Positions 14,169 through 56,589 of a stretch of DNA of 64,000 nt are shown here, in pieces. The stretch spans positions 229,800-293,799 of the forward strand of contig JALMQS010000915.1 of the NCBI GenBank assembly GCA_024734495.1, written 5' to 3'. The position numbers and the translations under genes are program-made. Each line of letters starts with the position of its first letter. Positions within the stretch are counted from its first letter, which is position 1. This stretch comes from Forficula auricularia (Eukaryota; Arthropoda; Insecta; Dermaptera; Forficulidae). A model generated the notes under the pieces. That model was not told the DNA's origin. It worked only from the letters and a program-made list of their open reading frames with translations, and ran no database searches.

Positions 14169-14392
14169 ATTGAAGGAGACAATAAAAGAGTGTGTCTTCT
14201 GCTGGAATTATAAATTTTATTTATTTATAACGAGACTATAGTTTCGAGGGCTTTGCCCTCTTCATCAGTCTATTACAATGGATTCACAGGAATTAATTTA
14301 TGAATGAAAGGTTAACATCTTTCATGTGGTTAGGTTAGAAATTATTATTTATAATTCCAGCAGAAGACACACTCTTTTATTGTCTCCTTCAA
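14169..14392. mobile_element. 224-bp inverted-repeat element with a central hammerhead-like core
   Basis: Inverted ends of about 45 bp start TTGAAGGAGACAATAAAAG and surround a hammerhead-like motif (minus, 14226-14276). It is inserted in the 3' part of the hAT remnant. It may be a small relative of the larger hammerhead foldbacks at 20, 50, 53 and 56 kb. Confidence 0.75.
14226..14276 (-). ncRNA. Hammerhead-ribozyme-like motif H1
   Basis: On the minus strand: CTGATGA (14262-14268), stem II GAGGGC-AAA-GCCCTC (6 bp, triloop), GAAA, a short stem III ACT-AT-AGT, and a GTC cleavage triplet (14234-14236). Core nucleotides agree with the hammerhead consensus CUGANGA/GAAA/UH. Stem I is weak beyond GA/TC. 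This is the only copy in the window with a closed stem III of its own. Confidence 0.65.
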
Positions 14393-14439
14393 TATGTACT
14401 TTCATTAAAACGTCACTATTTTACAATCAGTAATGTAGG

Positions 14440-14494
14440 GGGGCCTCAAAATGTGATTGCGCTTGGGGCTTTCAAAATGCTGGATCCGCCACTG
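14440..14494. mobile_element. hAT terminal inverted repeat (right end)
   Basis: The sequence ends CTGGATCCGCCACTG, the complement of CAGTGGCGGATCCAG, a familiar hAT-type end. It pairs with the hATC fragment upstream. The left end is not in place. Confidence 0.65.
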
Positions 14495-14546
14495 GAAAAG
14501 ACAAAAGCCGAGAGTAGTAGTTTTAAAATTTCTATAAATCAAAATA

Positions 14547-14840
14547 TACCGGGTGAATTCTTTATCTTGAGACAGTCTTATAACTCAAAAGCAGTCAGTG
14601 CATTATATGAAAAAAAGTTTCAAATAAAAGTTTATTTATATCAGGGGGGAAACTAAACTACACTATTGTTTGTCGACCTAGAACAAGCTTTCAAGGGTAT
14701 TTTAAGGTCACGTTCTGTTTTTTAAATGGAAACCTATATATTTATTTAAAGATCCTTAATTTTCAAAAAAAACTGAACAACTTTCATAAGAACTATGTTT
14801 TTATAGGACATCAAATAAATAAAATATTAAATCAATTAGA
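14547..14840. repeat. Dispersed transposon end (CCGGGTGAGTTTTT family), copy 2
   Basis: It matches 9413-9700 with substitutions and runs into the assembly gap. Confidence 0.7.
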
Positions 14841-14940
14841 NNNNNNNNNNNNNNNNNNNNNNNNNNNNNNNNNNNNNNNNNNNNNNNNNNNNNNNNNNNN
14901 NNNNNNNNNNNNNNNNNNNNNNNNNNNNNNNNNNNNNNNN
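14841..14940. other. Assembly gap (100 N)
   Basis: Exactly 100 N, a standard placeholder for a gap of unknown size. It separates zinc-finger copy B from its missing upstream exons. Confidence 1.
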
Positions 14941-14985
14941 TATCATCTCTAAATTCATCTCTTTAACACATTTATTTTTTTCCAG

Positions 14986-15769
14986 ATACAAGTAATCGAA
15001 CTAAGAATGAAACTGAAGATTATTTCTGTGAGGAATGTTTCTCTGGATTTCTATCATTGTCTGAATTCGAAAGCCATATACAGGAAGGCCATTCAGAAGA
15101 AGTACTCTTCTCAAGTCATCTGAGCGATCGGAAATACGGTGCTGAAACCAAATCGGAACCCCCTATTGCCATGATTCCTCAGAGCGAGAAGGCTTCTAAA
15201 GTGACCTTTCATAATCGATATAATGCCGCCAAACGTTCTTTACCCTCTCCTAACGATAAAAAAAAATTGAAATCAAAACAAATTAATCAATGTTTGGGAA
15301 CTCATTTCTAATAACAAGCATACAGGCCAAAAGCCTTTCGTCTGTGATCACTGCGAGAAGGGTTTTTCACGAAAAGCTATATCTCAAAAAGCATTTACTT
15401 ATTCATACAGGCGACAAGCCTTTCGTCTGTGATCACTGCGAGAAGGGTTTCTCGCAAAAAGGTGATCTCAAAAGGCATTTAATTATTCATACAGGCGACA
15501 AGCCTTTCGTCTGTAATCACTGTGATAAGGGTTTTTCGCGAAAAGATGATCTCAAAAGGCATTTACTTATTCATACAGGCGAAAAGCCTTTCGTCTGTGA
15601 TCACTGCGAGAAGGGTTTCTCAGATAAGAGTTATCTCAAAAGGCTGAACATTTCTACAACAAAACCTAAATTGAAAAATTTGATAAAATGTGAGTTATTT
15701 ATGAGATGGTCTGCGACACATGTAAAAAAGAAAATAAAGCCCATAGAAATATTGGTGGGTGAAACATGA
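14986..15769 (+). pseudogene. Zinc-finger copy B, frameshifted exon 3
   Basis: The exon follows a TTTTTTCCAG acceptor at 14985 and encodes the family N-terminal finger (Y-F-C-E-E-C ... H-I-Q-E-G-H) and linker. A one-base insertion near 15300 (GGAACTCATT against GGAACCATT in relatives) and another near 15380 move the reading frame twice. Four TGEK/TGDK-linked finger segments follow (helices include SQKGDLKRH, SRKDDLKRH and SDKSYLKR). After the last, the array is replaced by unrelated sequence, ending at 15769. Upstream exons would lie in or beyond the gap. Indel errors next to a gap are an alternative explanation for the frameshifts, but the lost C-terminal fingers still make a pseudogene likely. 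Confidence 0.8.
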
Positions 15770-15774
15770 AGACT

Positions 15775-16880: not shown

Positions 16881-16881
16881 A

Positions 16882-17124: not shown

Positions 17125-17129
17125 TATAT

Positions 17130-18420: not shown

Positions 18421-18425
18421 GATAA

Positions 18426-18472
18426 ATAAAGAGAAACAAAGAGGTTGTCCTCTGCTTGATGCAAATAAACAT

Positions 18473-18508
<36 letters not shown>

Positions 18509-19213: not shown

Positions 19214-22200
19214 ATGGCTGAAATTCCAATCATGAATCTCAAATATCCAATTTATACAGGTTAGTTTTCACATGTCATATATATAATAAAATATTTTGTT
19301 TAATTATTAAATAATTGATTGTTATCTATATTGTTCATTGTTAATTTTCTATTATTGTTTTAAATTAAACAGTTGAATAGAAAAAGTTCATTCTTGCCTC
19401 GAATTAATCAGAATCTTATGCAGATTTTAAATCTATAATATAATTATGTTGTGTTATTTTTAATAATTATTTTGGCTTTAAATAAAAGAATAAATTGGTT
19501 TAATTATAATAAACTTCCACTAGATTCAGTTTCATTATTCATTATTTATTTATATATTATTATTAGTAGCTGGCCACCGAGCGATGCTCGGTAACTTTTT
19601 GCTTCAGTTAAAAGCTATATATTAATCCTTGACCCCCCTCGGCCCCCGGACCATTGCCCCCGCCCCCTCACCCAGCTTTTGCATTTCTAGCCTTCTAGTG
19701 GCCCACATATTATGTGTATATAGTAATAGGTATATAAATAAATACGGTATAATAATTTTTTTAAATAACAATTTTTGAGTTCATCAATTAAATTGCCAAA
19801 TTCTAATATATTTGTGGGATTTAAAACTCGATTTTTAATCAATTAAATTGCCTAACTTTTAATATATCATAATATTTGTAATGATCTATTAGTGTAATTT
19901 AAAATTGAAAAACCAATTAATTATTAAAAGGAAATTGAATAAAAATGTAATTATACAATTTTATCCAGACAACAACCTGTGAATAATAGAATAGAATAGA
20001 ATTTTTATTGTTTTTTTGTACAAGGTACACAAACAAATACATGATTATTTATACAAATCTGAAACACCAATCACAATCCCATCTTCACTCTAAAATTACA
20101 TTTCCAATCGAATCAATGCCCCTGATAAAATTTAAGATCTTATATATAATAATTGAATGTAATGGAAGGCAGCCCAGAGTGTGAGGAAAGAAAAAATTAA
20201 TACATATAAAATAAGGTGTAATTTATTGGAATCCTTCCTCCTTTCCTTTCAAACCGACGTTTCGGAGGATTTTTCCTCCTTCTTCAGGGTTTCATTGACC
20301 CTTTGAAACCCTGAAGAAGGAGGGAAAATCCTCCGAAACGTCGGTTTGAAAGGAAAGGAGGAAGGATTCCAATAAATTACACCTTATTTTATATGTATTA
20401 ATTTTTTCTTTCCTCACTACTCCTGCCTGGGCTGCCTTCCATTACATTCAATTAAAATTTCTACCAGTCCGTCTCTCTCCAGAGAAAATTTCGTTGCTTA
20501 TATATAATGTTTGTATCACCGCAGTCTCCAAAATACAAAACATTTCTCCTCTTGTTACAACCCCCAGAACTCGATCTCGGTATTTACTTATTATTATATT
20601 ATTATTATTATTTACGCCACCGCAGCTACAGAGTCGGCTGTTCTTAAATTTCGCCAATCTACAGCTAAAATTTTAGAGATAAATCATAAAATAGAATAAA
20701 TCAGTTCTCTCTGTCAAAAAACAACTTAAATAGGTTCGGTTTATGATCTCAGTTCGATTAGATAAAAAAATGCGGGTACATTAACACCACCGCAAGGTTT
20801 GTTTGAGAACGCATTTTTTATCTCATCAAACTGAGATCATAAAACGAACCTATTCAAGTTGTTTTTTGACAGAGGGGGAACTGATTTATTCTAATTTATG
20901 ATTTTCTCTAAAATTTTACTTGTAGATTGGCGAAATTTAAAAACCGCCAAATCTGTAGCTGCGGTAGCGTTAATACGTAAGTACCGCGGCGTCTCTCCCT
21001 CCACCTGTGAATAATTATTTCAATTAACAAAAACCCATCAAATACAACTCACCCGAAGATGAGACCGTGACAGATCGAATCGCCAACACAAAACCCCCCT
21101 AACCCGGGAATATCATCCAAATCGTTAAAGCCATTTTCGGGAACCCGATATATAATATATATATACAAGATTTGCTCGTTTAATATAATAAAATAAGATA
21201 ATTAGTTCCGTATAGACGGGCCGTTAAAATTACGCAAAGCCGCCTCAAGAGAATTTTTGAACACGATTTTTCTTAAATCGCCAATGATACCATCTTCTCC
21301 AGATGTTTTTTGTATGTTCTTAAGTTTGCAGATGTGTCCATGATAGTGGGTTCTTGGACAGTTGAGAAGGTCATTGAATCTGGATTTTCATTGATCTAGT
21401 TCTGTATCAGGTTACGCAATTGCCTGCCTGGTTATTGAAGTAGTCCGATGGACGAAGGCGTCCGGTTTCTTTAGAACCAGGGATTGTTAGTTTTTGGAGC
21501 GAGGAAGTCGTTATTATTTTTCAAATATTAATTTTTTAATTAATGAATCAACGCCTACGCTGCGAAAAATGAACGAGGAGAGGATTTAAAAAGAAATTCC
21601 ATAATTCATATAGACAAAAGGTATTAGTTTGGGTTCGGGGATCAGTACCTTAGTGGATATAGGAGGTAAACCTCTTATGACAAAGCATTGCAGTACATAT
21701 GCAAAGATCCCGGGTTCGAGCCCCGGCTGATCCTTTTGTCTGTAATAAAAATAATCTTTTCTTCGTTCCCTAAATTTGAATTAATTTTTATATTTTTGCC
21801 TCTAGTTGGGCTGGAACCCGTAACGTCGTATTTTTGCACAATCGATTACTTTATCCACTCGGGCTACCAGCTCCCGAATCATTATAATTATATATAAATT
21901 AATTCAAATCAAGTCCGAATTTGTTCATTTATATTCACTTGGATTAGATTTTAACTCACTAGTGTCCATGGGGGCCTTAAACATTCATATCTAACTAATA
22001 ATAATTGAAATTTTATCTTTTTCAGGGCCACATTTCTTGTGCTGTGATTGTCGGACGATGTTCATTAGTGAAGATTTCCTGAACAAACATCAAAAGAAAT
22101 GTATACATAGGAAATTACATTTAATTTTAAAAATGAAATTTCAATTGCGAAGAAATACATCAGCTGAGGGTAAGTTCATTTATTTGATTCATAACCTTGG

Positions 22201-24548
22201 AAGCATTCTCCTAAAACTTTTATTCAAATTCTAATTTAGATGAAATTAAGCCTTTGTCCTCCATTTCGGAGACCATTATGATATTCAAGGGATTAAGTTT
22301 TTTACGATTTTATTTCTAATAATTTTCATTGATCAATGAATTCAAAATTAATTCCTTAGCACACTATATAGCCCAGTCCAAATAGACAAAATAAGGCTAA
22401 TCGGTGGAATAAAATCCCAGAGTTTTGGAAATAGTCTTAAACGCTTCGTTTAGACTTGAGTTAATGTCTGTCAAATGTCCCCGAAGATGGGGCTTGAGCT
22501 CGAGGAGGGGGGAGGGGTCAAAGTTTTCTTTTTCCAGTTTATCGCTTATAACTCGAAAATGGTCCATATTTTGTAAATAACCATCCTAGAGTAAATTAAA
22601 ATGGACGAAATTTCTCGTCGATTAAAAAAATTATTGTAGTAGTTCGATTTTATTTTTAAACTAGATTAAATTTCTTAGAATTCAAACAAAGTTTCATTTT
22701 AATTGGATAATGGTAATCCTGCCGCATTGAGGTTGTAGTTTTGAAAAACTACAATTTTTTTTGAAAAAAAAATCGCAGTTTTCATACATAAAATGAAAAC
22801 CACTCATCCTAGAAACATGAATCCTATTTCATTCTCTATGAAATTTTGTTTACTTGAACGTTTACTTGGACCACTTTTTTGTTAAAAGTCTTAGATTTAT
22901 AGATATTAAAAAAATCAAAAAACTGCGAGTTTTTGGGATAGGTATCCAAAAGTGATCCGGGAGAAATTTTGTCCTCTTTAATTTACTATAGGACGGTTAT
23001 TTACAAAATATTGGACGTTTACAAGTTATAAGCGAAAAACTGGAAAAAGGGAACTTTAACACCCCCCCCCCCTCCTAGAACTCAAGCCACATCCTTGGGC
23101 ACTTTTGAGACACATTAATTCAAGTCTAAGGGAAGCGTTTAAGACCATTTCCAAAATTCTGGAAGTTTTTCCTTCCGGTTTGTCTAATTTGACTGCCCAT
23201 GTTGAAATTTTGGAACGGTCGGAGATCATTCCGGCCATCATCCAATACCGGATTGATATCCGAGAACAGTCGGGTATACAAAATTATCAGATCATGCCGA
23301 CATCAGATTCTATCGATTTGTCTAATTTGACTGGGCTAATATACTACTTATCTAACGATATAATTGAATGATTTCACAACTAAAAAGAACAAAACTAAAA
23401 TAAACTTTTCTGCTCTATTTTGAATTTCATCTCTAAATTCATCTCTTTAACACATTTTTTTTCCAGATACAAGTAATCGAACTAAGAATGAAACTGAAGA
23501 TTATTTCTGTGAGGAATGTTTCTCTGGATTTCTATCATTGTCTGAATTCCAAAGCCATATACAGGAAGGCCATTCAGCAGAAGTACTCTTCTCAAGTCAT
23601 CTGATCGATCGGAAATACATTGTTGAAACCAAATCAGAACCCGCTATTGCCATGATTCCTCAAAGCGAGAAGGCTTCTAAAGTGACCTTTCATGATGAAT
23701 ATAATGCCGCCAAACGTTCTTTACACTCTCCTAACGATAAAAAAAAAATTAATCAATGTTTGGGAACCATTTCTAATAAGAAGCATACTGGCCAAAAGCC
23801 TTTCGTCTGTGATCACTGCGAGAAGAGTTTTTCACAAATGAGTAATCTCAACACCCATTTACTTATTCATACAGGCGACAAGCCTTTTGTCTGTAATCAC
23901 TGCGAGAAGGGTTTCTCACTGAAGGGGCATCTCAAAAGGCATTTACTTACTCATACAGGCGACAAGCCTTTCATCTGTGATCAATGCAATAAAGGTTTTT
24001 CACAAATGAGTAATCTCAACACCCATTTACTTATTCATACAGGCGAAAAGCCTTTCGTCTGTAATCACTGCAAGAAGGGTTTCTCACTGAAGGGACATCT
24101 CAAAAGCCATTTATTTATTCATACAGGGGACAAGCCCTTCGTTTGTGAACAATGCGAGAAGTGTTTCTCACGAAAGATTTATCTCAAAAGCCATTTACTT
24201 ATTCATACAGGGGACAAGCCCTTCGTTTGTGAACAATGCGAGAAGGGTTTCTCAGATAAGAGTAATCTCAAAAGGCATTCACTTACTCATACCCTCGAAA
24301 AGTCTTTCGTCTGTGATCACTGCGAGAAGGGTTTCTCTCGAAAAGGTGATCTCAAAACCCATTTACTTATTCATACAGGCGAAAAGCCTTTCGTCTGTGA
24401 TCACTGCGAGAAGGGTTTCTCACAGAAGATCAATCTCATAAACCATTTACATATTCATACAGGTGAAAAGCCTTTCGTGTGTGATCACTGCGAAAAGAGT
24501 TTCGCACTAAAGCGTAATTTAAACAATCATTTGAAAATCCACTCCTAG
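19214..24548 (+). CDS. Zinc-finger gene C: intact three-exon C2H2 protein, 423 residues
   Basis: Exons are 19214-19259, 22026-22169 and 23467-24548. Every junction has GT-AG signals and phase 1, and the spliced frame is open to TAG at 24546-24548. Exon 1 encodes M-A-E-I-P-I-M. Exon 2 encodes a finger C-C-D-C ... H-Q-K-K-C (CX2CX12HX3C). Exon 3 opens with Y-F-C-E-E-C ... H-I-Q-E-G-H, then a charged linker with K-S-E-P, then nine tandem fingers joined by TG-D/E-K-P-F. Contact residues at -1,2,3,6 read QSNT, LGHR, QSNT, LGHS, RIYS, DSNR, RGDT, QINN, LRNN. It is probably a nuclear DNA-binding protein; no effector domain (ZAD, KRAB, BTB) is seen. Intron 1 holds Helitron, foldback and tRNA-like insertions. 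Gene D is a close paralogue with mostly different contact residues. Target unknown. Confidence 0.9.
20251..20292 (-). ncRNA. Hammerhead-ribozyme-like motif H2
   Basis: Minus strand: CTGAAGA (20281-20287), stem II GGAGG/CCTCC, GAAAC, GTC (complement at 20256-20258). Stem I AAACC/GGTTT gives five perfect pairs. Stem III is only ACGT with no loop, so activity would need pairing between two copies, which the adjacent inverted copy H3 could supply. Confidence 0.6.
20305..20348 (+). ncRNA. Hammerhead-ribozyme-like motif H3
   Basis: Plus strand: CTGAAGA (20311-20317), stem II GGAGG-GAAAAT-CCTCC, GAAAC, GTC (20340-20342), with stem I AAACC/GGTTT. It is the inverted partner of H2. Confidence 0.6.
20608..20980. 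repeat. Foldback with ~165-bp arms
   Basis: The left arm (about 20608-20775) and right arm (about 20812-20980) pair with scattered mismatches. Landmarks are TTTTTTGACAGAG and CTGAGATCATAAA. The centre is about 35 bp. No ORF and no hammerhead core. Confidence 0.8.
21639..21733 (+). repeat. tRNA-like sequence (possible SINE head) in gene C intron 1
   Basis: A perfect 7-bp acceptor stem GGATCAG/CTGATCC and a perfect T arm CCGGG-TTCGAGC-CCCGG are present, with a B-box GGTTCGAGCCC. A D-arm-like segment and a TTGCA/TGCAA stem with a 7-nt loop also occur, but about 24 extra nt separate the D arm from the anticodon-like stem (95 nt in total). It is more likely a tRNA-derived repeat or relic than a working tRNA. 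Confidence 0.5.
21803..21880 (-). repeat. Second tRNA-like relic, opposite strand
   Basis: Minus strand: an A-box-like TAGCCCGAGTGG (21855-21866) and a B-box-like GGGTTCCAGCCC (21808-21819). The acceptor stem does not close well. It lies about 70 bp from the plus-strand tRNA-like sequence. Confidence 0.4.
22435..23165. repeat. Imperfect foldback in gene C intron 2
   Basis: 22435-22640 is repeated inverted at about 22960-23165. Shared landmarks are AGTTTATCGCTTATAACT against its complement, TTGTAAATAACC, and a G/C-rich homopolymer. The frames on both strands near 23105 are part of this repeat. Confidence 0.65.
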
Positions 24549-24591
24549 AAAATTGTCTCTCTTGCTTCTATTTTAAATAACTAAATTATAT

Positions 24592-27500: not shown

Positions 27501-27839
27501 ATAATTATTAAAAGGAAAACATCCCTGATGATTACACCCCCATCCTTGTCGAAACATCCTCATGCTCATTAAAAGTAGATCTGCAATTTATTTGAATTTA
27601 ACTATACATTTAATTATTTTTTGATTATTATTTATTAATTTCATCAATAAATATTTACAAAATGGTTTTTCAATTTGTTAACACATTAATAAAAAAAATA
27701 ATGCATTTTAATGTTATATTAATTAATATTTTATTCTAATAATGTATTATAAGAATATGCATAATCTGGAGGAATACTTTCAATTTGCAACAAATCCCTT
27801 AAGCCCTTTTTTTCTCTTGACAAATATTAATTTTGTTTG

Positions 27840-28826
27840 AATATTTTGGCAAATTTTGACCTATTAAATCTGCCCTCCAATCCAATACATTGTTACGCTG
27901 ACGATAGCACCCTCCACAACGCTCAATCCTTACTAGACGATCGCGCAAACATAGCCTCCTCAATAAATTCAGACTTAAGCATGCTAAAAAAATGGGGATC
28001 TCACAACTTGGTAAACTTTAATGCTGGTAAAACACAATGCTGCCTAATTTCTAGGCGCGCAGATAGGAACCTTCCGGACATTTCCTTTGATTCGAGCTCA
28101 TTGGAATTTCGTAATAAAATATCATTGTTAGGTGTCTCCTTAGGTTCTGACCTCTCTTGGAATGACCATATTATCTCAGTAGCAAAGGCTGCAGCATGTA
28201 AGCTTGGCTTTCTTTTCCGAACCAAACGATTTTTCACCCCCACTCAACTCCTTATATTATACAAGGCTCAAATTCGCCCCTGTCTTGAATATTGCTCGCA
28301 TTTGTGGAGAGGGGCCCCCAAGTATTCTCTTGAAACCCTGGACGCAATTCAGAGACGAGCTATCAGACTGATAGGCGATCCTACATTAACTGACACTCTC
28401 GACTCCCTAGCCCATCGTAGATCTGTCTCCGCCCTTTCCCTTTTTTATAGATACTACCATGGCTTTTGTTCTGACGAAATTAAATCGATAATCCCACCAA
28501 GGGCTTCATTTGCGCGAAATACACGATTTTCTAAAACTCAACACCCCTACGCGCTTAAACTGGATACTAATCGAACAAACGCATTCGCCAATTCATTTAT
28601 CCCCATGACATCTAGAGACTGGAACTCTCTTCCCCCGACCGTCTTTCCAGCAACTTATGACCTTCAATCTTTCAAGACCAGCATCCACAGATACCTTCGA
28701 CTTCTACCCAATCACTAAATCTCCCCTTATCTTCACGTTACAAGGGTCCACCACGGACTACAGAGGTTGTACCTTCTTGGTGCAACTTCTTCTTGTATCA
28801 GTATCTTTATAAAAAAAAAAAAAAAA
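27840..28826 (+). mobile_element. 5'-truncated Jockey-like LINE with poly-A tail
   Basis: The frame 27837-28718 is open for 293 codons. It begins inside the reverse transcriptase with H-C-Y-A-D-D-S-T (catalytic Y-A-D-D), then the thumb region K-T-Q-C-C-L-I-S and the C-terminal R-D-W-N-S-L-P block, and ends N-H-stop. The 3' UTR has GGTTGTACCTTCTTGGTG and an A-run. The 5' half (endonuclease, most of the RT) is missing, the usual result of incomplete reverse transcription. It is dead on arrival, though the remaining frame is intact, suggesting a young copy. Confidence 0.85.
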
Positions 28827-31480: not shown

Positions 31481-32276
31481 TTTTTTTTTTTTAATGCAAT
31501 CGAATGCAAGAAGGTGCACCAGTAAAGATGCAGCCCCTATGGATCTCGAAAGACCCTTGCATTACCGAAGAGAAGAGAAAGTTGATTAAGTGAGAGGGTG
31601 TAGACGTAGGTGTCTATGCACTCCGGTTTTGAAGGTTTGAAGATTATAGGTGCTGGGAAAGATAGAGGCTGGAAGAGAGTTCCAGTTCCTTGAAGTCATG
31701 GGGATATATGTATTCGCGAATGAAGTGGTCCGGCACTTTTCTAATTTGACCGCGAGAGAGTGTTGGGAGTCGGCAAAACGCGTGCTACGTGCAAAGCATG
31801 CTTTGGGGGAATTATTGATTTTATCTCATCAGAGCACCTGCCGTGATAGTATCTATAGAAAAGGGAAAGGGCAGAGACATTTCTTCGATGAGCCAGCGAG
31901 TCGAGGGAGTCGGTGAGGGTAGAATCGTCAATTAGCCTGACGGCTCGTTTCTGAATTGCATCCAGGGTAGTAAGAGAGTATTTTGAGGCTCCTCTCCATA
32001 GATGAGAGCCGTATTCGAGACAGGGGCGGATTTGGGCCTTGTATATGGTGAGAAGTTGTGGGGGTTTGTAAAATCGCTTGGACCTGAATAAGAAGCCAAT
32101 CTTCCTTGCTGCAGATTTCGCCACAGAGGAGATGTGTTCATTCCAAGACAGGTCAGATGCGACAGAGACGCCCAACATGGATAGGCTGTCACACATTTTT
32201 AGGGTATTCGAATCGAAGTGAATATCAGGGAAATCTTTATTTTCGCGTCTAGAAATTAGACAACATTGAGTCTTCT
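31480..32276 (-). mobile_element. 5'-truncated Jockey-like LINE, minus strand, frameshifted
   Basis: A T-run at about 31480-31495 is the poly-A tail. The frame 31741-32196 encodes M-L-G-V-S-V-A-S-D-L-S-W-N to A-H-R-R-N-V-S-A-L-S and is then shifted relative to the copy at 28 kb. It abuts another copy in opposite orientation at 32281. Confidence 0.8.
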
Positions 32277-32280
32277 AAAA

Positions 32281-41497: not shown

Positions 41498-42789
41498 TTG
41501 GATTGGCAACTAAGTAATTGCGGATTTTTTTTTTTTTAGAAAATCAAAGACAATTTTTTCATGGAACTAAATAACTTTATTCTGTAATGTATTGCCCATT
41601 TTGATCAATGACCTTTTGCCATCTTTCAGGCAGCATCATAATCCCACGTTCATAAAACTTCTGGTTTTTATTAGCAAAAAACTGAATCAGGTACGATTTG
41701 ACATCATCATCATTATTGAAATTTTTACCATTCAAGGAGTTTTGTAAAGATCGAAATAAAAAGTAATCAGATGGTGCAAGGTCAGGACTATATGGTGGAT
41801 GTGGCAAAACATCCCAACCAAGCTCCAATAATTTTTGCCGAGTGACCAAAGATGTGTGTGGCCTTGCATTGTCATGATGGAATACAACACCTTTTCGATT
41901 TGTCAATTCGGCCCGCTTTTCTTCAACTGCATTGTTTAATTTCGTTAGTTGTTCAATGTAGACAACAGAATTGATCGTTCGGTTGGGTGGTAAGAGTTCA
42001 AAGTAGACAATTCCTTTGTAATCCCACCAAACTGATAACAAAACCTTCTTTTGATGAATACCAGCTTTTGATGTTGTTTGAGCTGGTTCACCTGGCCTGC
42101 TCCACGATCTTTTCCGCTTGATATTGTTGTAAACAACCCATTTTTCATCGCCAGTTATCAGTCGTTTTAAAAATGGATCATTTTCATTACGCTTCTTTAG
42201 CAAATCGCAGCTGTTAATGCGTTGCGTTAAATGCGTTTCTTTCAGTTCGTGAGGAACCCATGTATCGAGTTTTTGAACATAGCCAAGTTGTTTTAAGTGA
42301 TTTTCAATGCATGTATGTGATACATGAAGCTTCTCTGCAATCTCACGTGTTGTACTGTGACGATCCGAATCGATTATTGCTTTGATTAGGTCGTCATCAA
42401 CTTCAACTGGACGACCAGAGCGTTTTTCATCTTTGAGTGAAAAATCACCAGAACGAAATTTGGCAAACCAATTTTGACACTGCCGTTCTTTAAAGGCTTC
42501 GTCGCCATAAACAGCACATAACTTTTTGTGAGCTTGCGATGCGTTTTTCCCTTTGCGGAAATAAAAAAGCAAAATATGACGAAAATGTTCCTTTTGATTT
42601 TCCATTTTTCAACGAACGCCAAACGAAAACTACGCAACCGATCAAAAAACTTTTTTTACTGATTGACAGCTGAATTGCCAACTATCAAATAACAAAATGT
42701 GTTTTACATTTGGACTACGCCAGCAAACCTAAAAATTCAACTGAAGCCATCTATGAGTGAAATCCGCAATTACTTAGTTGCCAACCTTA
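41498..42789 (-). mobile_element. Full-length mellifera-type mariner
   Basis: 1292 bp with terminal inverted repeats TTGGATTGGCAACTAAG and (complement) TAAGGTTGGCAACTAAG, flanked by TA on both sides. It carries one uninterrupted transposase ORF. The outermost 4-5 bp of the right end differ from the left end and from the TTGGGTTGGC start of the fragment at 54027, which might lower mobility. Confidence 0.95.
41577..42605 (-). CDS. Mariner transposase, 342 residues, intact
   Basis: A full-length DD34D transposase of the Tc1/mariner superfamily. It binds the element's inverted repeats and carries out cut-and-paste transposition at TA sites in the nucleus. Residues 1-110 form two helix-turn-helix motifs (K-S-G-R-P linker-like G-R-P at 64-66). 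The W-V-P-H-E-L linker is at 116-121. Catalytic aspartates are D153 (T-G-D-E-K-W), D245 (H-H-D-N-A-R-P-H) and D280 (S-P-D-L-A-P-S-D-Y-F), with 34 residues between the last two. Length matches the family. Sequence features place it in the mellifera subfamily. No stop or frameshift. The start at 42605 follows the 184-bp untranslated end. Whether it is active cannot be told from sequence. Confidence 0.95.
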   Translation of the reverse strand: MENQKEHFRHILLFYFRKGKNASQAHKKLCAVYGDEAFKERQCQNWFAKFRSGDFSLKDEKRSGRPVEVDDDLIKAIIDSDRHSTTREIAEKLHVSHTCIENHLKQLGYVQKLDTWVPHELKETHLTQRINSCDLLKKRNENDPFLKRLITGDEKWVVYNNIKRKRSWSRPGEPAQTTSKAGIHQKKVLLSVWWDYKGIVYFELLPPNRTINSVVYIEQLTKLNNAVEEKRAELTNRKGVVFHHDNARPHTSLVTRQKLLELGWDVLPHPPYSPDLAPSDYFLFRSLQNSLNGKNFNNDDDVKSYLIQFFANKNQKFYERGIMMLPERWQKVIDQNGQYITE

Positions 42790-48129: not shown

Positions 48130-49972
48130 AGAGTCTGGACTTGAGTAAGAATTTCTTATCCTAGTGATCACAGCTGAATAACTTCTATCCAGTGTGAGAC
48201 AATAAATGTGTTTTGAGGTTGGACTTTCGTGAGAATTTCTTCTCGCAGTGATGACAGCCGAATAACTTCTCCCCAGTATGAATCAGCATATGTCTTTTAA
48301 GCGTGGACTTTTCGTGAGAATTTCTTCTCGCAGTGATGACAGCCGAATAACTTCTCCCCAGTGTGAATCAGCAAATGTGTTGTGAGATGTCCTTTTCGTG
48401 AGAATTTCTTCTCGCAGTGATGACAGCCGAATAACTTCTCCCCAGTATGAATCAGCATATGTGTTTTAAGCGTGGACTTTTGTGAGAATTTCTTATCGCA
48501 GTGATGACAGCCGAATAACTTCTCCCCAGTATGAATCAGCATATGTGTTTTAAGCGTGGACTTTCGTGAGAATTTCTTCTCGCAGTGATGACAGCCGAAT
48601 AACTTCTCCCCAGTATGAATCAGCATATGTGTTTTAAGCGTGGACTTTTGTGAGAATTTCTTCTCGCAGTGATGACAGCCGAATAACTTCTCCCCAGTGT
48701 GAATCAGCATATGTCTTTTAAGCGTGGACTTTTCTGAGAATTTCTTCTCGCAGTGATGACAGCCGAATAACTTCTCCCAAGTGTGGGACCATAAATGTGT
48801 ATTGAGGTAAGACTTTCGTGAGAATTTCTTCTCGCAGTGATGACAGCCGAATAACTTCTCCCCAGTGTGAGATCAGTAAATGTGTTTTGAGGTTGGACTT
48901 TTGTGAGAATTTCTTCTCGCAGTGATCACAGCCGAATAACTTCTCCCCAGTATGAATCAGCATATGTGTTTTAAGCGTGGACTTTTCGTGAGAATTTCTT
49001 CTCGCAGTGATGACAGCCGAATAACTTCTCGCCAGTGTGAATCAACATATGTGTTTTGAGGTTTGACTTTCGTGAGAATTTCTTCTCGCAGTGATGACAG
49101 CCGAATAACTTCTCCCCAGTGTGGGACAATAAATGTGTTTTGAGGTTGGACTTTTGTGAGAATTTCTTATCGCAGTGATCACAGCCGAATAACTTCTCCC
49201 CAGTGTGAATCAGCATATGTCTTTTAAGCTTGGACTTTTCTGAGAATTTTTTCTCACAGTGATCGCAGACGAATAACTTCTCGCCAGTGTGAATCAACAT
49301 ATGTGTTTTGAGGTTTGACTTTAGTGAGAATTTCTTCTCGCAGTGATCACAGCCGAATAACTTCTCCCCAGTGTGAATCAGCATATGTTTTTTAAGCGTG
49401 GACTTTAGTGAGAATTTTTTATCGCAGTGATCACAGCCGAATAACTTCTCCCCAGTGTGAATCAGCAAATGTGTTTTGAGCGTGGACTTTAGTGAGAATT
49501 TTTTATCGCAGTGATCACAGCCAAATAATTTTTCACCAGTGTGAATCAGCATATGTGTTTTAAGCGTGGACTTATGTGGGAATCTCTTATCGCAGTGGTG
49601 ACAGCTGTATATCTTCTCTCTACTAGAATGAGTCACAAAATGTTTATTCAAGGAACTTTTGGTAGTATATTTGTTTGCACATTTGCTATATGTGAAAGGT
49701 CCTATCTTTGAAGAGCTCTGAATATCTATCGTACTTTCTGATATTGTCTTAAATGATACTTCATTTAAATTACAATTAACTTCGTGTTGATGCGTCATGA
49801 TTATAGGGCGTTGAATTTGCCTATTACTATTTAAGGGTAGATCGGCTGCATGCTGGTCACGTATATGACTCTCGTATTAAGATATTTCGACAAAAGCACA
49901 AACGCACTCTTCGAAGTAATAATCCTCCACACTTTTGTATTTGTCTATACTTGTAGTGGGGCAGTTCGGCGC
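48130..49972 (-). pseudogene. Zinc-finger copy E: degenerate array of ~18 fingers (84-bp repeats)
   Basis: The exon starts after a TTTTTTAG acceptor at about 49973. The N-terminal finger is decayed (D-Y-Y-F-E-E-C with a lost cysteine, and an in-frame TAA before Y-E-S-H-I-R-D-Q-H). From an internal ATG at 49798 an ORF of 275 residues runs through about eight fingers with the linker TGEKLFGC, helices such as SLKSTLKTH, SEKSKLKRH and SRKSNLKTH. Single-base insertions in T/A runs then break the frame near 48985, 48875 and 48310, and the array continues in other frames to about 48130. Seventeen linkers can be counted. Units are much more alike than in genes C and D. It could be a pseudogene or, less likely, an intact array with assembly indels. 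Confidence 0.8.
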
Positions 49973-50062: not shown

Positions 50063-50520
50063 TGTAATCGTGCATGAAAAATTAGTTCTTTTGATTCGTT
50101 TTTTTTCGAAATATCAAAAAACTGCTCAAAACTATTTTTATAAAAAAATTTAAACGAAATCATGGCGTTTTACTCAACAAGAAACCCTTGGGCCGGATAT
50201 TTCAATGTCCATTTATTCAGTTTTTCTGTCTAAATAAAAAATAAATTCACCTTTAACTATTCTATTTCTCCTCAATATCAAGTTTAATTTCATGTAGAAA
50301 CATTTCGTTTGTTGTTTGTCTAGAAATTCTTCGCTAATATAGTAGGAACATCATTTTACATTAACACCGCACATAAAAAGTGGACCTGGAAAAGAAGGAC
50401 ATAAAATTATTATAGAGCTGAGTATGAATAAAAAATTTATCATAAAAAGATATCTAGATTTATTGAAATGTCTTTTATTATTAATACTATTAAATAATAT
50501 TTGAAAAATATTAATTTTAT
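50063..50520. other. No gene recognised
   Basis: AT-rich intron-like or intergenic DNA upstream (minus sense) of copy E exon 3. CATACAGAGTATGG... at 50041 has a related copy at 51412. Confidence 0.4.
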
Positions 50521-50650
50521 TTATTTTTATAATCAGGAACGAGGCTTTTTGAATAACAGTAGGAAGATCGAGTCCTTATAGAATGATGGTTATTTTTCTT
50601 TTTTCAATAAAAAATTTTCATCAGTGTTTATAATTTAATTTTATTTGAAA

Positions 50651-50696
50651 CAAGAGACGTTTCGGCACCAACTCAATGCCATCTTCAGTCTATAAA
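50651..50696 (-). ncRNA. Hammerhead-ribozyme-like motif H4
   Basis: Minus: CTGAAGA (50682-50688), stem II GGCA/TGCC, GAAAC, GTC (50656-50658), with stem I AGA/TCT. Stem III is ACGT only. Confidence 0.6.
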
Positions 50697-51064
50697 AACA
50701 TTCAACAATATATCACATTACATTTCACAACCAATAGGCATATCACAATTCACAAAGATAATATTCAACTAATGGTCCTACCTATGTTAAAAAATAAGAT
50801 ATCATTATATTTCCTTCACAGAGGCAAAATGAAAAGAAATTAAATTACTGAGGTCAACACGCATCTCAAACAGTGAGTTAATTTATTAATTTTGAGATGC
50901 GTTTTGACCTCAGTAATTTAATTTCTTTTCATTTTGCCTCTGTGAAGGAAATATAATGATATCTTATTTTTTAACATAGGTAAGACCATTAGTTAAATAT
51001 TATCTTTGTGAATTGTGATATGCCTATTAATTGTGAAATGTAATGTGATATATTGTTGAATGTT

Positions 51065-51112
51065 TTTATAGACTGAAGATGGCATTGAGTTAATGCCGAA
51101 ACGTCTCTTGTT
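51065..51112 (+). ncRNA. Hammerhead-ribozyme-like motif H5
   Basis: Plus: CTGAAGA (51073-51079), stem II GGCATT-GAGTT-AATGCC (6 bp), GAAAC, GTC (51103-51105), with stem I AGA/TCT. Inverted partner of H4, with a longer stem II. Confidence 0.6.
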
Positions 51113-51240
51113 TCAAATAAAATTAAATTATAAACACTGATGAAAATTTTTTATTGAAAAAAAGAAAAAATAACCATCATTCTATAAGGACTCGATCTTC
51201 CTACTGTTATTCAAAAAGCCTCGTTCCTGATTATAAAAAT

Positions 51241-51840
51241 ATTATAAGAATCAAATAATTACTATTCCCTAATAATTTTATTTAATTTAACAAAAATAGA
51301 AAAATATTTTATTTTTAATTTTATATTGGTAGTTGAAATGGAAAACCTCCCTTTAAAAAAATATAACTCACTTGATACATTTTTGAAACTTTTCTTTTGT
51401 TTTTTACTTTACCATACAGATTATGGTCAAGTATTGTAATCGTGCATGAAAAAAGTGGGGTTTTTTACTTCGTTTTTTTCGAAATATCTCAAAAACGGTC
51501 TATTCTTGATTAAAATAAGTTGATATTTAAAAAAAATATATATTTTTCGAGATATTAACTGTTTTGTCAAAATGTCTGTTCGTACGTTACGAAATTTTTG
51601 TGGACGAGCTAGCTCAAAAACTAGTGTGGATATCAAAACCAAATTTCACATGTAATTTTGGTGCCGTGAGTTTAAGGTAGTTGTTCCGTCAAATGGGTTT
51701 TCTTAGGATTTTTTGAAATTTAGACAGATTATTAATTGTTAAATACCTCTTCATCGATTTGGTGCCACAACGAAATTTATGAACAATACAGTTCCGGAGA
51801 TATTAAATTTCAAATGATAGAGTTTTTCAGACTCTTATAC
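51241..51840. other. No gene recognised
   Basis: A dispersed repeat containing TTTCGAAATATCTCAAAAACGG and GTGAGTTTAAGGTAGTTGTTCCG. Short frames have no motif. Confidence 0.4.
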
Positions 51841-52050
51841 ATTGCACTATACGTGATATCGGAATATTTACATTCATATTTAATTATAATTAAGAAACTC
51901 TTTTTACCATTTTTATAAAAAAACTAAACCAACATTAAACAATAACCAATAGATATTTTAAGACAATTTTGATTCATAGTTACAACACAGTTTCTAGATA
52001 AAAATGAATAAATAATGAAAAATGTATAAAAAAAAATTTATACTAAAAAC
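51840..52050. repeat. Left arm of a long-range inverted repeat (partner 54710-54905)
   Basis: ATATTTAATTATAATTAAGAAA, AACTAAACCAACATTAAACAATAAC and CAACACAGTTTCTAGA all recur as complements at 54710-54905. The arms are about 2.7 kb apart and enclose a mariner fragment, a hammerhead foldback and the decayed exon 1 of copy E. Confidence 0.75.
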
Positions 52051-52539
52051 AATTTGGCAATAGCGCATTTATTTAACAAGCGAAAGATGTATAAAGCCAG
52101 CATGCGCTAGATTTTTTCAAAATTATAATTTTCATAAGGTGTAACGTAGGCGTTGATAACATTTGTTAAAAAATAACAAAACGATTTTTATAGAAATAAA
52201 TAGACCTTTAAATTTTTTTTTATTTGTTATTTTAATATAAAAATATTCAATCTCTTGCAATGGTGCCAGATTTGTCAAACGAGCACGGGATTGGCTAGAA
52301 TCGGTACATAAACATCCAAAAGTTTTGGGCTTATGAATTATGAATCTTTATTGTCTGTACTATATATTCTAGCATTAAATTTTTTCCTAATATTGTCGCG
52401 AAACAACCACCTTAAGAGCTGATTAGAGTTTGGTGCACACTGCACATAGACCCAAAATTAAGCGTGGGAGGAGGTAAAAATTATAATTTTTTCAAAAAAC
52501 AAGTAAAATGAAATATACTGCAAAATAAACCTTTAATAA

Positions 52540-52690
52540 AGAAAATAGACAGTTTGAGCAAATTCAACAAAATTTTGTAAACATAATCAGTCGTACACCG
52601 GAAGACTAAAAATGCAAAAACTAAACATCCAAAATGGGGGTGGGGGGTTCAGCCCCCTAAATAATTATAAATAATTTTATTAAATATAAG
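52540..52690. repeat. Fragment of the Helitron-related repeat
   Basis: TTTGAGCAAATTCAACAAAATTTTG and CATAATCAGTCGTAC landmarks, followed by a G-rich stretch, match pieces at 42792-43090 and 54395-54640. Confidence 0.5.
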
Positions 52691-53064
52691 AGAGGGGTTA
52701 GGGTGGCCACATCTGTTAAATAACCTCTTAGAATATATAATAATCAATAATAGCAAAACATTTAAATATCCTCGAAATGCCTATAAAAAACTGACACTAT
52801 TTATTCATTGATCTCAAAATTAAATTAAAAAATAAAGCCATTTTCCTTATTTGAATAATCACTTCTTGATGTTTCATTAGAACATAAAAATGTCAGAAAA
52901 CAAAATACATATTTCAAAAAAACTTTACCTTTATCAGTATATAGACCAATTTCCTATTAGAAATATATTAAATAAGTAATTAAATATAATTTGAAAAGAA
53001 TGTGATGATTGAATATTATATTTATATTAATTGTATTTGATGACAAAACAATAAAATAGCTAAC

Positions 53065-53107
53065 CTATATGGATGGGATATTTGCAGTCTTTGTTCTTTA
53101 TTTCCGT
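53065..53107 (-). pseudogene. Probable decayed exon 1 of zinc-finger copy E
   Basis: Minus text T-E-I-K-N-K-D-C-K-Y-P-I-H-I followed by GTTAG aligns with exon 1 of genes C and D (M-A-E-I-x-I-M-x-x-K-Y-P-I-Y-T, then GTTAG). The exon is 43 nt, three fewer than the 46 nt of C and D, so one codon is missing and the start ATG is ACG. Adjacent upstream sequence (53265-53345) matches the 5' flank of gene D. Exon 2 was not found between here and 49972. Confidence 0.55.
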
Positions 53108-53459
53108 GAAGATATATATATATATATATCCTGTAATTTCAATTGATATAGATAAATAATTTATTAATAAAATAAATATAAAACTTTATTTGAAATTATA
53201 AAATTGTTTTCCTATAATTATTAGTTAATAATGTAAACTATAGATAAGAGATATTAGATGAAATAATGCTAAAAAGAATAAATCCGCCAGATGTCAGGGC
53301 AGTCGATGTAAAATGTCCCTCCCAATTTTGAATCCATGAAATATTAAATACTACTTAGATATGGTACTATAATGTTTTAAAATTATAAATTGTGGTGTTT
53401 TTTGAGGCTCTTGAAAACCTTGAAAACAGATGTAAATGTCTTTGTTAGGAAAAAGGAAA

Positions 53460-54025
53460 TAAAATTTCTTTATATTCTAACAAATTTATTTTCATGAAAA
53501 ACTTATGAGACGTTTCGGCGGATATTCTCTCACCATCATCAGTCTACAAGGAAAACACAATCTTAATTACAGTAAATTACTAATTACATGTCATTCTCAA
53601 GATAAAAGAAGAAAAGAACTCACCTAAGCTTTTTCATAATATAGTACATATGTCTGGGTAGAATGTCATTTTCTTTACAAATAAAGCTTGTAATAAAAAA
53701 ACAAATTATAATTAATTTTAATAAACCTAAATAAATCAGATAAAAATTTTTCATATTTGTTATTTACCTGAGGTATTTTGTTAATAATAGTATGTCGATA
53801 TCAGTTATATAAGTTATATAAGCAGCTTATAGTTATTCTTCTTTATGAAAGTGTTATAAGAAGAATAAACTATAGAAAACAACTTATATAACTGATATTG
53901 ACATACTATTATTAATAACAAAATATTTCTCCAGGTAAATAACAAATATGAAAAATTTTTATCTGATTTATTTAGGTTTATTAAAATTAATTATAAGAGT
54001 TATTTTTATTACAAGCTTTTTGATA
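53460..54025. mobile_element. Hammerhead-bearing foldback d, right side cut by mariner
   Basis: 53670-53850 pairs with about 53870-54022 (landmarks CATATTTGTTATTTACCTG and AAAATTTTTCATATTTG). The left arm continues outward to a hammerhead core at 53503-53550. The matching outer right arm is missing, replaced by the mariner fragment at 54027. Confidence 0.75.
53503..53550 (-). ncRNA. Hammerhead-ribozyme-like motif H6
   Basis: Minus: CTGATGA (53536-53542), stem II GGTG/CGCC with one G-U pair, GAAAC, GTC (53509-53511). Stem I is short. No inverted partner remains. Confidence 0.55.
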
Positions 54026-54026
54026 A

Positions 54027-54300
54027 TTGGGTTGGCAACTAAGTAATTGCGGATTTTCTTTAGAAAATCAAAGACAATTTTTTCATGGAACTAAAATAAC
54101 TTTATTCTGTAATGCATTGCCCATTTTGATCAATGACCTTTTGCCATCTTTCAGGCAGCATCATAATCCCACGTTCATAAAACTGTCTTTATTGTAGGCA
54201 AAACTGAATCAGGTACGATTTGACATCATCATCATTATTGAAATTTTACCATTCAAGGAGTTTTGTAAAGATCGAAATAAAAGTGAATTGATGGTGCAAG
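54027..54300 (-). mobile_element. Truncated mariner fragment
   Basis: Starts TTGGGTTGGCAACTAAG and is nearly identical to the left ~275 bp of the mariner at 41498, covering the transposase C-terminus with several single-base deletions. It ends inside the ORF near 54300. Confidence 0.9.
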
Positions 54301-54394
54301 AAGAAATAAGCTGACGTGTTCTGATGTGGCCATCCACTTGACTTTACCATACAACCTGGCCCCTCACTTATATATTTAATATTTAATAAAATTA

Positions 54395-54640
54395 TTTGTA
54401 ATCATGTAGGGGGGGGGGGGTTAGTTTTTACAATTTTAGACTTCTGGGGATCCACTGATTATGTATACAAAATTTTATTGAGTTTGTTACAAGGGCCAAG
54501 ATTTTCATCTTCTGACTCCCCCCCCCCCCCATTTTGGGCGGTTAGTTTTTACATTTTTAGACCTCTGGGGGTCCACTGATTATGTATACAAAATTTGGTT
54601 GAGTTTGCTCAAATGGCCTAGATTTTTAGTTTTTAATGTC
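54395..54640. repeat. Two tandem pieces of the Helitron-related repeat
   Basis: CCACTGATTATGTATACAAAATTT occurs twice (near 54453 and 54573), each preceded by GGTTAGTTTTTAC and a G/C homopolymer. Confidence 0.6.
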
Positions 54641-54709
54641 AAAAAAGTACTAAAGTTAACCCACTTTTTAGGTTAAATATATACGTTGTTGCCAGCTTGT
54701 TTTTAGTTC

Positions 54710-54905
54710 AAATTTTCATTATAAATTTTTCATTATATATTCATGATTATCTCAGAAACTGTGTTGTAATTATGAATTAAGATTATCTTAAAAAATGTAT
54801 TAGTTATTGTTTAATGCTGGTTTAGTTTTTTTTAACCATGGTAAGAAGTCTTTCTTAATTATAATTAAATATGTATGTGTAAACTTTCCGATATCCCGTA
54901 TAGAG
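54710..54905. repeat. Right arm of the long-range inverted repeat (partner 51840-52050)
   Basis: Complement of 51840-52050, ending ATATCCCGTATAGAG. Confidence 0.75.
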
Positions 54906-55474
54906 ACCATTCGTTAAACATAGAGGCAGCACTACTGCCGAAAGTAGCGCTCTCTTGTGCTTATTTATTCAAATAATTTGAAAGAATTGGGGTAAAGATT
55001 GTACTATAGTATATATCATAGGTAAACAAGTTCACAGAGCCTAGAGGGGCGTCAGTGAGTCCCTTTGTATTGGACGTTTAATAAATCATCCCCCAAAGAT
55101 TACAGTTGGCGCTAAAGTCGTGACGCATGGTCAATATAAGAAATAAACAATAATAAGATAAACATAAATCTACGCACTGAGTCCACGCTCAGCCATATAA
55201 GACGAATGAAATTCAATTAAAAACTTTAGTACTATTACCGACAATCCAGGGTAGAAAACTGGTATTGTTTTTTGAGGCCAGTACTCTTGGTAACAAATTT
55301 TGAATTTTACTTTGAGGTCATCGTTAGAGGTGAGTGAAAGTCGAATGGTATTCAGTAAACACGGCTAAAAAATTGGTAGAGAAATGTGAAAATTTAGTGA
55401 GATAGATAGGGACAGTGGTGTTATATAAGGAGGGGGGAGATAGGGAGGGGTAAATGAGGGGGGAGATAGGGACA

Positions 55475-55560
55475 GTGGTTTCCTGTTGCGAGAGCTATAT
55501 AAGGGGGAGAGAGAGACAGGGAGATGGTCAGTATGTGTCAGTCAGTGACGAGTGAAACAT
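55475..55560 (+). promoter_or_regulatory. TATA-box and initiator-like sequence ahead of the exon-like array
   Basis: GCTATATAAGGGG (about 55482) is followed some 45 bp later by GTGTCAGTCAGTGACGAG, with arthropod initiator-like TCAGT. A near copy TTATATAAGG lies at 55422. Position suggests a promoter for the units from 55740 onward, possibly of LTR type. Not proven. Confidence 0.35.
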
Positions 55561-56262
55561 CGACTGTGAGTGTTCCAATATATCCTCTCCACCCTCATCC
55601 ACCCTCTCAACTGACTCCAACCCTCACTAATAAACAACTCTTCATCCCTTATATTAATTAATTGCATAGAATCCAAGAAGTCATTAAATATAAATTAATT
55701 TATTATATTTGCGAATGTGAATTAAATATTAATATCTGGGTAACGGGTAGGTAGGTACTTCTATTGTTCTTATAGATAAAGATATACAGATCCACTTAAG
55801 GGGCTGACATCCCTGCCTAAATATTAAGAGAATCATGTCCTATCCCTAATCCTATCCAACTTCATTCCGTGCTTTCACAAATCCATATTCCTTCGAAGTC
55901 TTTCGCGAGTATATTTTTACTTGTGCGGGAGTGTACGTAAGTGTGTTCCATTCCTGTGGGGTACAGTATTCCAGGTTCAGACACGAGGCATTGGCTGTAA
56001 AGGTAACATCTTTATAATAATGTATTCTTTTAATTATATAAGTAAGAAATATAAATTTTTCATGTATTTTTTTTATAATTTTTCAAAAAATAAAAAAAAC
56101 ATTATTTCAATAATATATTAAATATAATTTTATTGCGAATATATAAAAAAAAAATACTTTCACTTCGCTATATGTTTTTACTAATGTGGATGTTGATGAA
56201 AGCAGTCCACGGTGGTTGTAAAAAATAAGACTATAGAGGTTTTATTATTTTACATTTATTTG

Positions 56263-56308
56263 TTAAAACCGACGTTTCGCAGATTATTCTCTCCTTCTTC
56301 AGGGTAAC
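56263..56308 (-). ncRNA. Hammerhead-ribozyme-like motif H7
   Basis: Minus: CTGAAGA (56296-56302), stem II GGAGA opposite CTGC (mispaired), GAAAC, GTC (56271-56273). Stem II has decayed compared with H8. Confidence 0.5.
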
Positions 56309-56540
56309 AAAAAGTCAATGAAAGTAGTTCAAAAAATAGTTACTTTCTGTCTCCTTTGACAATGCCAAAAAAACATTATAAAAATTCTTTTCATTTCGAA
56401 TAGAAAAACAGTAAAAAGCAAAAGGAATTGCTTTTTACTGTTTTCTATTCGAAATGAAAAAGAATTTTTATAATGTTTTTTTGGCATTGTCAAAGGAGAC
56501 AGAAAGTAACTATTTTTTGAACTACTTTCATTGACTTTTT

Positions 56541-56589
56541 GTTACCCTGAAGAAGGAGAGAATAAATCTCCGAAACGTCGGTTTTAACA
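56541..56589 (+). ncRNA. Hammerhead-ribozyme-like motif H8
   Basis: Plus: CTGAAGA (56547-56553), stem II GGAGA-GAATAAA-TCTCC (5 bp), GAAAC, GTC (56577-56579), with stem I ACC/GGT plus an outer GTT/AAC. Confidence 0.6.

Follow-up and report, generated by a model that had tools for sequence, protein, structure and literature searches.

Predicted minimal hammerhead ribozymes in head-to-head Penelope-like insertions of Forficula auricularia and an excess of breaks at their predicted cleavage site

The window studied here, 64,000 nucleotides of the Forficula auricularia genome (contig JALMQS010000915.1, positions 229,800 to 293,799 of the forward strand), carries eight hammerhead-like cores, most of them in short inverted repeats that we call foldbacks. 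Considered as a whole, these sequences are, with good confidence, explained best by minimal type-I hammerheads which sit in the pseudo-long terminal repeat (pseudo-LTR, pLTR) of several families of Penelope-like elements (PLEs), the foldbacks being head-to-head PLE insertions. Arms of these insertions break preferentially at the bond where the ribozyme is predicted to cleave, and this excess suggests cleavage in vivo followed by reverse transcription of the cut RNA.

Cores were searched with the pattern CTGANGAN{5,30}GAAAC, taking 100 dinucleotide shuffles of the window as background. The window holds 10 matches, compared with a shuffle mean of 0.57 and a maximum of 3, and all eight cores listed by the first-pass annotation are among them. 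A covariance model trained on 14 sequences, all from outside the window (set A2, specified below), recovers the same eight with E values from 4.8e-17 to 8e-6. Clustering places 20259, 20311, and 53512 in families of the training set, and 14241, 50659, 51073, 56274, and 56547 in none of them. In the genome (1.06 Gb, 845 contigs) the pattern is matched 126,047 times (62,851 + 63,196) and the reversed pattern 5,312 times (2,663 + 2,649), i.e. the excess is about 24-fold.

Four foldbacks in the window accommodate seven of the cores, and all four are bordered by flank repeats of 11–12 bp. Foldback 1 (family 1, 14123..14392) has on its left arm the tail and a core at 14241..14268 (minus strand; stem II GAGGGC/GCCCTC, stem III string ACTATAGT, E 8e-6). 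Its right arm (14347-14398) is truncated about 19 nt past the cut; the seemingly single core, placed at 14226 by the first-pass annotation, is thus also part of a foldback, with a mate arm truncated past the core. The flank repeat is the 11-bp TATGTACTTTC at 14112-14122 and 14393-14403. Foldback 2 (family 2, 20151..20496), whose arms are 99% alike, carries its tail on the right arm and lies between copies of the 12-bp CTTATATATAAT at 20139-20150 and 20497-20508. It contains the core at 20259..20287 (minus strand; stem II GGAGG/CCTCC, stem I AAACC/GGTTT, zero-loop stem III ACGT, E 3e-13) and its mate at 20311..20339 (plus strand, E 1.7e-14). Foldback 3 (50524..51273) consists of arms of 278 and 83 nt, 97–98% complementary, with a tail of about 32 nt on the right arm; the 11-bp flank repeat AATTTTATTTA (50513-50523 and 51274-51284) was missed by the automatic search and spotted by eye. 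Its cores are found at 50659..50688 (minus strand; stem II GGCATT with a partly decayed 3' side, E 2.2e-12) and 51073..51102 (plus strand; GGCATT/AATGCC, E 6.9e-13). The arms of foldback 4 (56186..56708) are 99–100% complementary, the tail is again on the right arm, and the 12-bp GTTTTTACTAAT is repeated at 56174-56185 and 56709-56720. Its cores are located at 56274..56302 (minus strand; stem II GGAGA, 3' side decayed, E 2.4e-13) and 56547..56576 (plus strand; stem II GGAGA/TCTCC, stem I ACC/GGT, E 4.8e-17).

The eighth core, at 53512..53542 (minus strand, E 3.1e-12), falls into the same cluster as L020:4997, and no mate arm was found in the searched stretch 50500-57500. A possible ninth, decayed core is present at 63566..63596 (plus strand), with a 5-bp stem II (GGTCA/TGACC), no GTH triplet, and a weak model match at 63554 (E 0.0038). 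The pattern match at 27525 lacks both stem II and GTH and is a chance occurrence. In seven cores (14241, 20259, 50659, 51073, 53512, 56274, and 56547) the motif AATAAA lies about 8–30 nt 3' of the cleavage site; it is possibly a polyadenylation signal, but the genome is AT-rich. The stem pairs quoted in the first-pass annotation are present for both stems I and II, except that the left GGCATT copy reads GGTGCC on its 3' side, so that only the right copy forms GGCATT/AATGCC. The presence of several subfamilies in one genome was borne out. The view of that annotation that the elements are small non-autonomous foldbacks is refined to short head-to-head PLE insertions with coding copies in the same genome.

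Coding carriers were recognized by the GIY-YIG domain (PF01541), which gave 150 scored matches among 3,423 candidates; several of the matches lie in open frames that span about 860 codons. In 25 of 30 fetched loci, some of which are near-identical copies, a same-strand core follows 486–974 nt downstream of the domain start, and none of the 30 has one on the opposite strand within 1.1 kb. Locus L059 contains an open frame of 858 codons from stop to stop (about 827 from the first Met) with RVT_1 (1.6e-16) and GIY-YIG (8e-6) domains. Identical stretches recur there at 2,909 bp, which corresponds to tandem units sharing a pseudo-LTR; a core is placed between consecutive frames, and the tail motif is found at the start of the open frame, upstream of the first Met. 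The L059 protein has 109 relatives at E ≤ 1e-20 among 7,994 candidates scored, and those that could be named are all from animals (Parnassius, Diabrotica, Bemisia, Schistosoma, Xenopus, and others), as judged by sequence matches and not by a tree. By its sequence features, i.e. reverse transcriptase (RT) combined with GIY-YIG and tandem pLTR copies, the architecture of the carriers is Penelope-like. The L059 protein has no tblastn match in the window (E ≤ 1e-3), and the window foldbacks are truncated or non-autonomous PLE copies devoid of PLE coding sequence. No core of the window GGAGG and GGAGA families is the nearest downstream core in the 30 GIY-YIG loci, and coding partners of the window GGCATT and GGTGAG families were not found either.

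To locate breaks, exact 21-mers to the right of a chosen point were counted when the base just left of the point was wrong, and the letters upstream were classed as element-like (edit distance ≤ 4) or as joined to other sequence. Numbers of joins are extrapolated from the first 100 listed places and from exact 21-mers, and only +1 and −6 of family 1 are normalised to copy number. At the predicted cut of family 1, 2,394 of 15,778 copies are without C at −1. The first 100 listed comprise 13 core-like sequences, 27 snap-back junctions, 17 with both arms starting at about +1, and 43 other joins, which gives about 1,436 joined copies (9%) when the snap-back class is excluded. The corresponding values at −6 are 340 of 16,305 copies and 32 joins in the first 100, or about 109 copies (0.7%), while at +14, as a raw count not related to total copies, 248 copies with 42 joins in the first 100 lead to about 104. 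Inspection by eye indicated that a few of the 43 joins at the cut are snap-back or core variants, and that several of the 32 at −6 are diverged cores. In family 2, the cut is represented by 319 copies, 42 of the first 100 being joined (about 134, raw count); raw numbers elsewhere, not trimmed by eye, are 33 of 43 joined at −6, 29 of 67 at +5, and 37 of 94 at −13.

The way in which the two arms meet adds to this picture. The unpaired centre is at most 12 nt in 9 of 28 foldbacks and at most 30 nt in 14 of 28, and it exceeds 300 nt in others. Among the joins of family 2 at −13, 22 of 37 represent the stem II complement folded on itself, and the 27 snap-back cases of family 1 read CGAGA-CTATAG-TTTCG, a possible 5-bp hairpin (with one G-T pair) and a 6-nt loop. 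Such recurrent hairpin junctions fit a snap-back of first-strand complementary DNA (cDNA), which may have primed itself. The most informative type of junction is a zero-loop palindrome in which both arms begin at +1. It accounts for 14 of the first 100 listings of family 1 at the cut, 10 of them exact, at 6 places (each palindrome is listed on both strands); three further listings, one base short of +1, bring the total to 17. The six exact places were fetched, and five are simple foldbacks, while L066 is nested. In L063, L065, L067, and L068, both arms start at +1 and are accompanied by four different repeats of 11–13 bp and, in each locus, by a single tail, which may be on either side; L064, located within an AT repeat, is ambiguous. 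Further arms that hint at a +1 start are L014:1814 and L020:4600. In a separate alignment, 83 of 278 arms start past the core, in loci picked for cores or GIY-YIG, so this is not a genome share; clusters 16, 17, 19, 22, 24, and 25 of 26 are omitted from the query set of that alignment.

The reading we consider likely, from the genomic breaks, is that part of the template RNA was cut by the hammerhead in vivo and that the cDNA ran off exactly at the cleavage site, since on a cut RNA it must run off at +1. Several observations weigh against it. About 85% of family 1 copies with the +1 21-mer keep C at −1, so ribozyme read-through is the commoner outcome. Inspection by eye of the 42 family 2 joins at the cut suggests a stem I snap-back for 5 and diverged or internally deleted cores for 9, leaving 28, or about 89 of 319, and the excess at the cut is only about 2.5- to 4-fold on raw counts of which the cut position alone was trimmed. 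In the part of the study of Anolis carolinensis considered here (PMC11167929), the PLE ribozyme needed protein to cut, its mutants still inserted in vitro, and no reads ended at the cut.

The breaks might, instead of cleavage, mark a transcription start site or a stall of RT at the folded ribozyme, either of which also gives cDNAs ending at a fixed place. We regard this explanation as doubtful, though worth weighing, because breaks in two families whose downstream sequences are unrelated fall on one and the same nucleotide, a position that nothing but the ribozyme fold specifies. In addition, a stalled RT would be expected to stop before +1, where stem I has its distal end. Since snap-back of a hairpin requires a loop, the zero-loop joins at +1 need two ends there. 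Among the titles and abstract openings listed, with most subscription papers outside this coverage, none mentions breaks at the point of cleavage, so novelty is not proven.

The general anatomy of the foldbacks was compared across loci. Among 100 listed cores, 17 of 19 pairs within 300 nt are divergent. Flank repeats were sought in a stretch reaching from 6 nt within the arm to 75 nt beyond its end, omitting pairs in L006, L018, and L049, whose arms differ, and counting repeated copies of one pair once. A repeat of 9–14 nt is common to both sides in 20 of 25 foldbacks with alike arms; the automatic search detected no clear repeat in the other five, one of which is window foldback 3. In 300 mispaired controls the mean was 7.26, the 95th percentile 9, and the maximum 12, and since controls reach 12, the two shortest repeats (9 and 10) alone prove nothing. 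In all 20 repeat-bearing foldbacks one copy of the repeat adjoins the arm end, being no more than 6 nt away, and the second is found 27–64 nt farther out. This additional sequence is the PLE tail, which in family 0 is the sequence found where the coding frame begins. Arms at the short end stop 84–162 nt from the first core base in 24 of 25 foldbacks (one is misaligned), and arm lengths vary within a family. By this sequence organization, the foldbacks are single insertions, composed of two head-to-head, mostly 5'-truncated pLTR copies with a target duplication and one tail.

Animal retrozymes, i.e. tandemly repeated non-autonomous elements whose spread is mediated by circular RNAs that type-I hammerheads cut, share with these elements the type-I architecture, small size, low GC content, and PLEs as proposed helper, according to the part of the retrozyme report considered (PMC7229834). 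We consider this identity very improbable, as the direct tandem repeats with canonical hammerheads expected from that source were not found, close neighbours are mostly divergent, stem III is vestigial, and the insertions end in a PLE-type tail. Even less probable is an origin as DNA transposons resembling miniature inverted-repeat transposable elements (MITEs) with hammerheads in their terminal inverted repeats by chance: near-perfect inverted repeats, target duplications, and high copy number would agree with it, but equivalent terminal inverted repeats are absent, one end being longer in every foldback with a repeat of at least 9 nt, arm lengths vary within a family, and the pLTR and tail of family 0 belong to a coding PLE. 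Short of a transposase that produces such unequal ends, these already contradict a MITE-like origin. As a separate observation, 10 of 100 listed copies of a family 1 stretch are clustered within 2 kb on a single contig (G000:C98:129752-131759), perhaps as a short tandem array that derives from a PLE pLTR.

Whether the cores are constrained at the RNA level was assessed by pairing in stems I and II. Set A1 omits clusters 16, 17, 19, 22, 24, and 25 of 26 (rows that lack a stem or GTH or have an unusual context), as well as window clusters 11 and 12 and the near-duplicate cluster 20; set A2 is A1 minus three rows with a TATA loop. In A2, 88.4% of the cells of stems I and II are paired compared with a shuffled mean of 53.9%, changes on both sides occur in 41 cells compared with 15.7, and the covariation score is 0.908 compared with 0.260; none of 500 shuffles reaches any of these values. 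The paired-cell measure is biased in favour, the structure having been read off the same sequences. Every measure drops when the 3' strand is displaced by 1 to 3 columns. Apart from the alignment, 40 of 66 distinct cores, from 100 listed genome places, form the first four pairs of stem II, while exchange of 3' halves gives a mean of 8.6 and a maximum of 17. All 18 clusters with a stem II of at least 3 bp form the first two pairs of stem I, compared with 6.8 on average after swapping, and 11 of them form the first three, compared with 2.8. The earlier suggestion of a constraint acting on RNA is therefore supported, stems I and II covarying over 14 families. Two results are less favourable to the fold: pairs with both-side change number 7 of 8, a value reached by 232 of 500 shuffles and so not distinctive, and only one of five single ribozymes folded clearly more stably than shuffles (z −4.69; others −0.83 to −1.43). 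The search pattern fixes the core, which makes core conservation circular, but chance or ascertainment has a negligible probability, because stems I and II, the stem III string, and the GTH triplet lie outside the pattern and the stems pair far better than shuffled or swapped sequences, next to the genome-wide excess over the reversed pattern.

The conserved core CUGANGA ... GAAA ... NUH is present in all eight window cores, and 22 of 26 clusters have a GTC or GTT no more than 9 nt from GAAAC. One nucleotide separates A9 from stem II (the longest stem being taken) in all 40 cores with a stem II of at least 4 bp. From A15.1 through U16.1, all 18 clusters whose stem II reaches at least 3 bp read either ACGT or ACTATAGT, and each of these strings is self-complementary. 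Stem III is accordingly a 2-bp stem, A-U and C-G, around no loop (ACGT) or around TATA (ACTATAGT). With an extra nucleotide after A9 and only two stem III pairs enclosing 0 or 4 loop nucleotides, the cores are of the minimal variant; the canonical form, in which stem II follows A9 immediately and stem III is closed, is not represented among them. In summary of their class, the window cores are predicted minimal type-I hammerhead ribozymes, and self-cutting is a prediction from sequence. Rfam hammerhead models, which the first-pass annotation had put forward as a check, gave no match in the window at the gathering threshold or at E ≤ 5, a result that formally goes against it; the vestigial stem III and the extra nucleotide probably explain the miss. 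The best sub-threshold Rfam matches in the window are microRNA families, several inside inverted repeats.

The observations can be arranged into a tentative sequence of events. Tandem PLE RNA would fold minimal hammerheads, which probably act as dimers through the self-complementary stem III, and the PLE protein would cleave both target strands. Each target strand would then have its own start site of reverse transcription, both sites being internal to the RNA and 3' of the ribozyme. Uncut tandem RNA would yield arms with a core, or full copies with ribozyme and open frame, and cut RNA only short core-less arms beginning at +1. The two first-strand cDNAs would be joined head to head at their 3' ends, either by snap-back on hairpins (stem II or CGAGA-CTATAG-TTTCG) or directly. 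We assign about even chances to the complete version of this proposal, in which the hammerhead cuts in vivo and the cleaved 3' product, with a 5'-OH at +1, serves as template on both target strands, leaving more than 1,000 core-less arms in one family. The self-complementary stem III strings in 18 of 18 sampled clusters raise the possibility that two RNAs are cut as one dimer and delivered as a pair. If true, the ribozyme would be a brake, through which copying at full length gives way to short, dead insertions.

Minimal (“small”) type-I hammerheads of PLEs were reportedly described by Cervera and de la Pena in 2014 and by Lunse et al. in 2017. As far as the partial record of that earlier work goes, it has in common with our set the core, the tiny stem III, the location in the pseudo-LTR, and a proposed dimer action; different here are the number of core matches, about 126,000 in one genome, and the footprint of breaks at the cut. 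The extra nucleotide after A9, found in all well-formed cores sampled here, may be a further difference. In other hammerheads, palindromic stem III or loop III sequences able to pair in dimers were noted before, in the portion of the report covered here (PMC3088659).

The closest experimental parallel is PAc, the Poseidon PLE of Anolis carolinensis (Frangieh et al. 2024, PMC11167929), for which the part of the paper considered here describes RT starting at two internal sites and both target strands being extended. Common to both systems are the protein with RT and GIY-YIG, the pLTR hammerhead, two internal start sites that explain the tail, and cleavage and extension of both strands. In contrast, no difference in PAc start sites between strands was observed in vitro, while repeat-bearing foldbacks here have one short and one tailed end, and some templates here were apparently cut at the hammerhead, where PAc gave no reads (PMC11167929). 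Penelope elements of Adineta vaga (Arkhipova et al. 2013, PMC3846280) are described, in the sections considered, with inverted head-to-head pLTRs, a tail on one of them, and target duplications of 8–10 bp; the one-sided tail, the duplications, and palindromes at the junction are shared with our foldbacks. Differences are the low copy number in Adineta vaga and the self-priming on an antisense template proposed there, whereas hairpin junctions here fit snap-back of first-strand cDNA (PMC3846280). The word hammerhead is absent from that paper (PMC3846280). Metazoan non-LTR retrozymes, from the part of their description considered (PMC7229834), are likewise small non-autonomous elements with type-I hammerheads, but they form direct tandem repeats with canonical ribozymes, and here we find divergent foldbacks with minimal cores.

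The kind of ribozyme, its PLE home, the head-to-head pLTRs, and the tail are therefore already known, and what looks new is the size of the set within a single genome, perhaps the invariant additional nucleotide, the regularity of the single tail, and the footprint of breaks at the cleavage site. The roughly 126,000 core matches amount to a fossil record of templates in which break positions can be counted. An excess of breaks at the predicted bond offers a cheap and direct test, repeatable in other PLE-rich genomes, and the one-tail pattern together with recurrent hairpin junctions constrains how PLEs join two cDNAs.

The window also includes features unrelated to the cores. An open frame of 343 codons at 41577-42608 (minus strand) encodes Mos1-type helix-turn-helix and mariner transposase domains, and by eye a stretch near 54081-54200 resembles its C-terminal end. 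C2H2 zinc-finger frames occur on both strands at 8309-8818, 15287-15769, 23451-24548, 37912-39030, and 48297-49876, those at 8309, 23451, and 37912 having a similar N-terminal stretch in common. Repeated, partly inverted frames are located at 27831-28718, 31741-32882, and 60541-61044; they resemble the end of a non-LTR retrotransposon RT, but the one tested has no Pfam match. Finally, a 355-codon open frame at 61985-63052 (minus strand), without a Pfam match, has 11 relatives with up to 53% identity.

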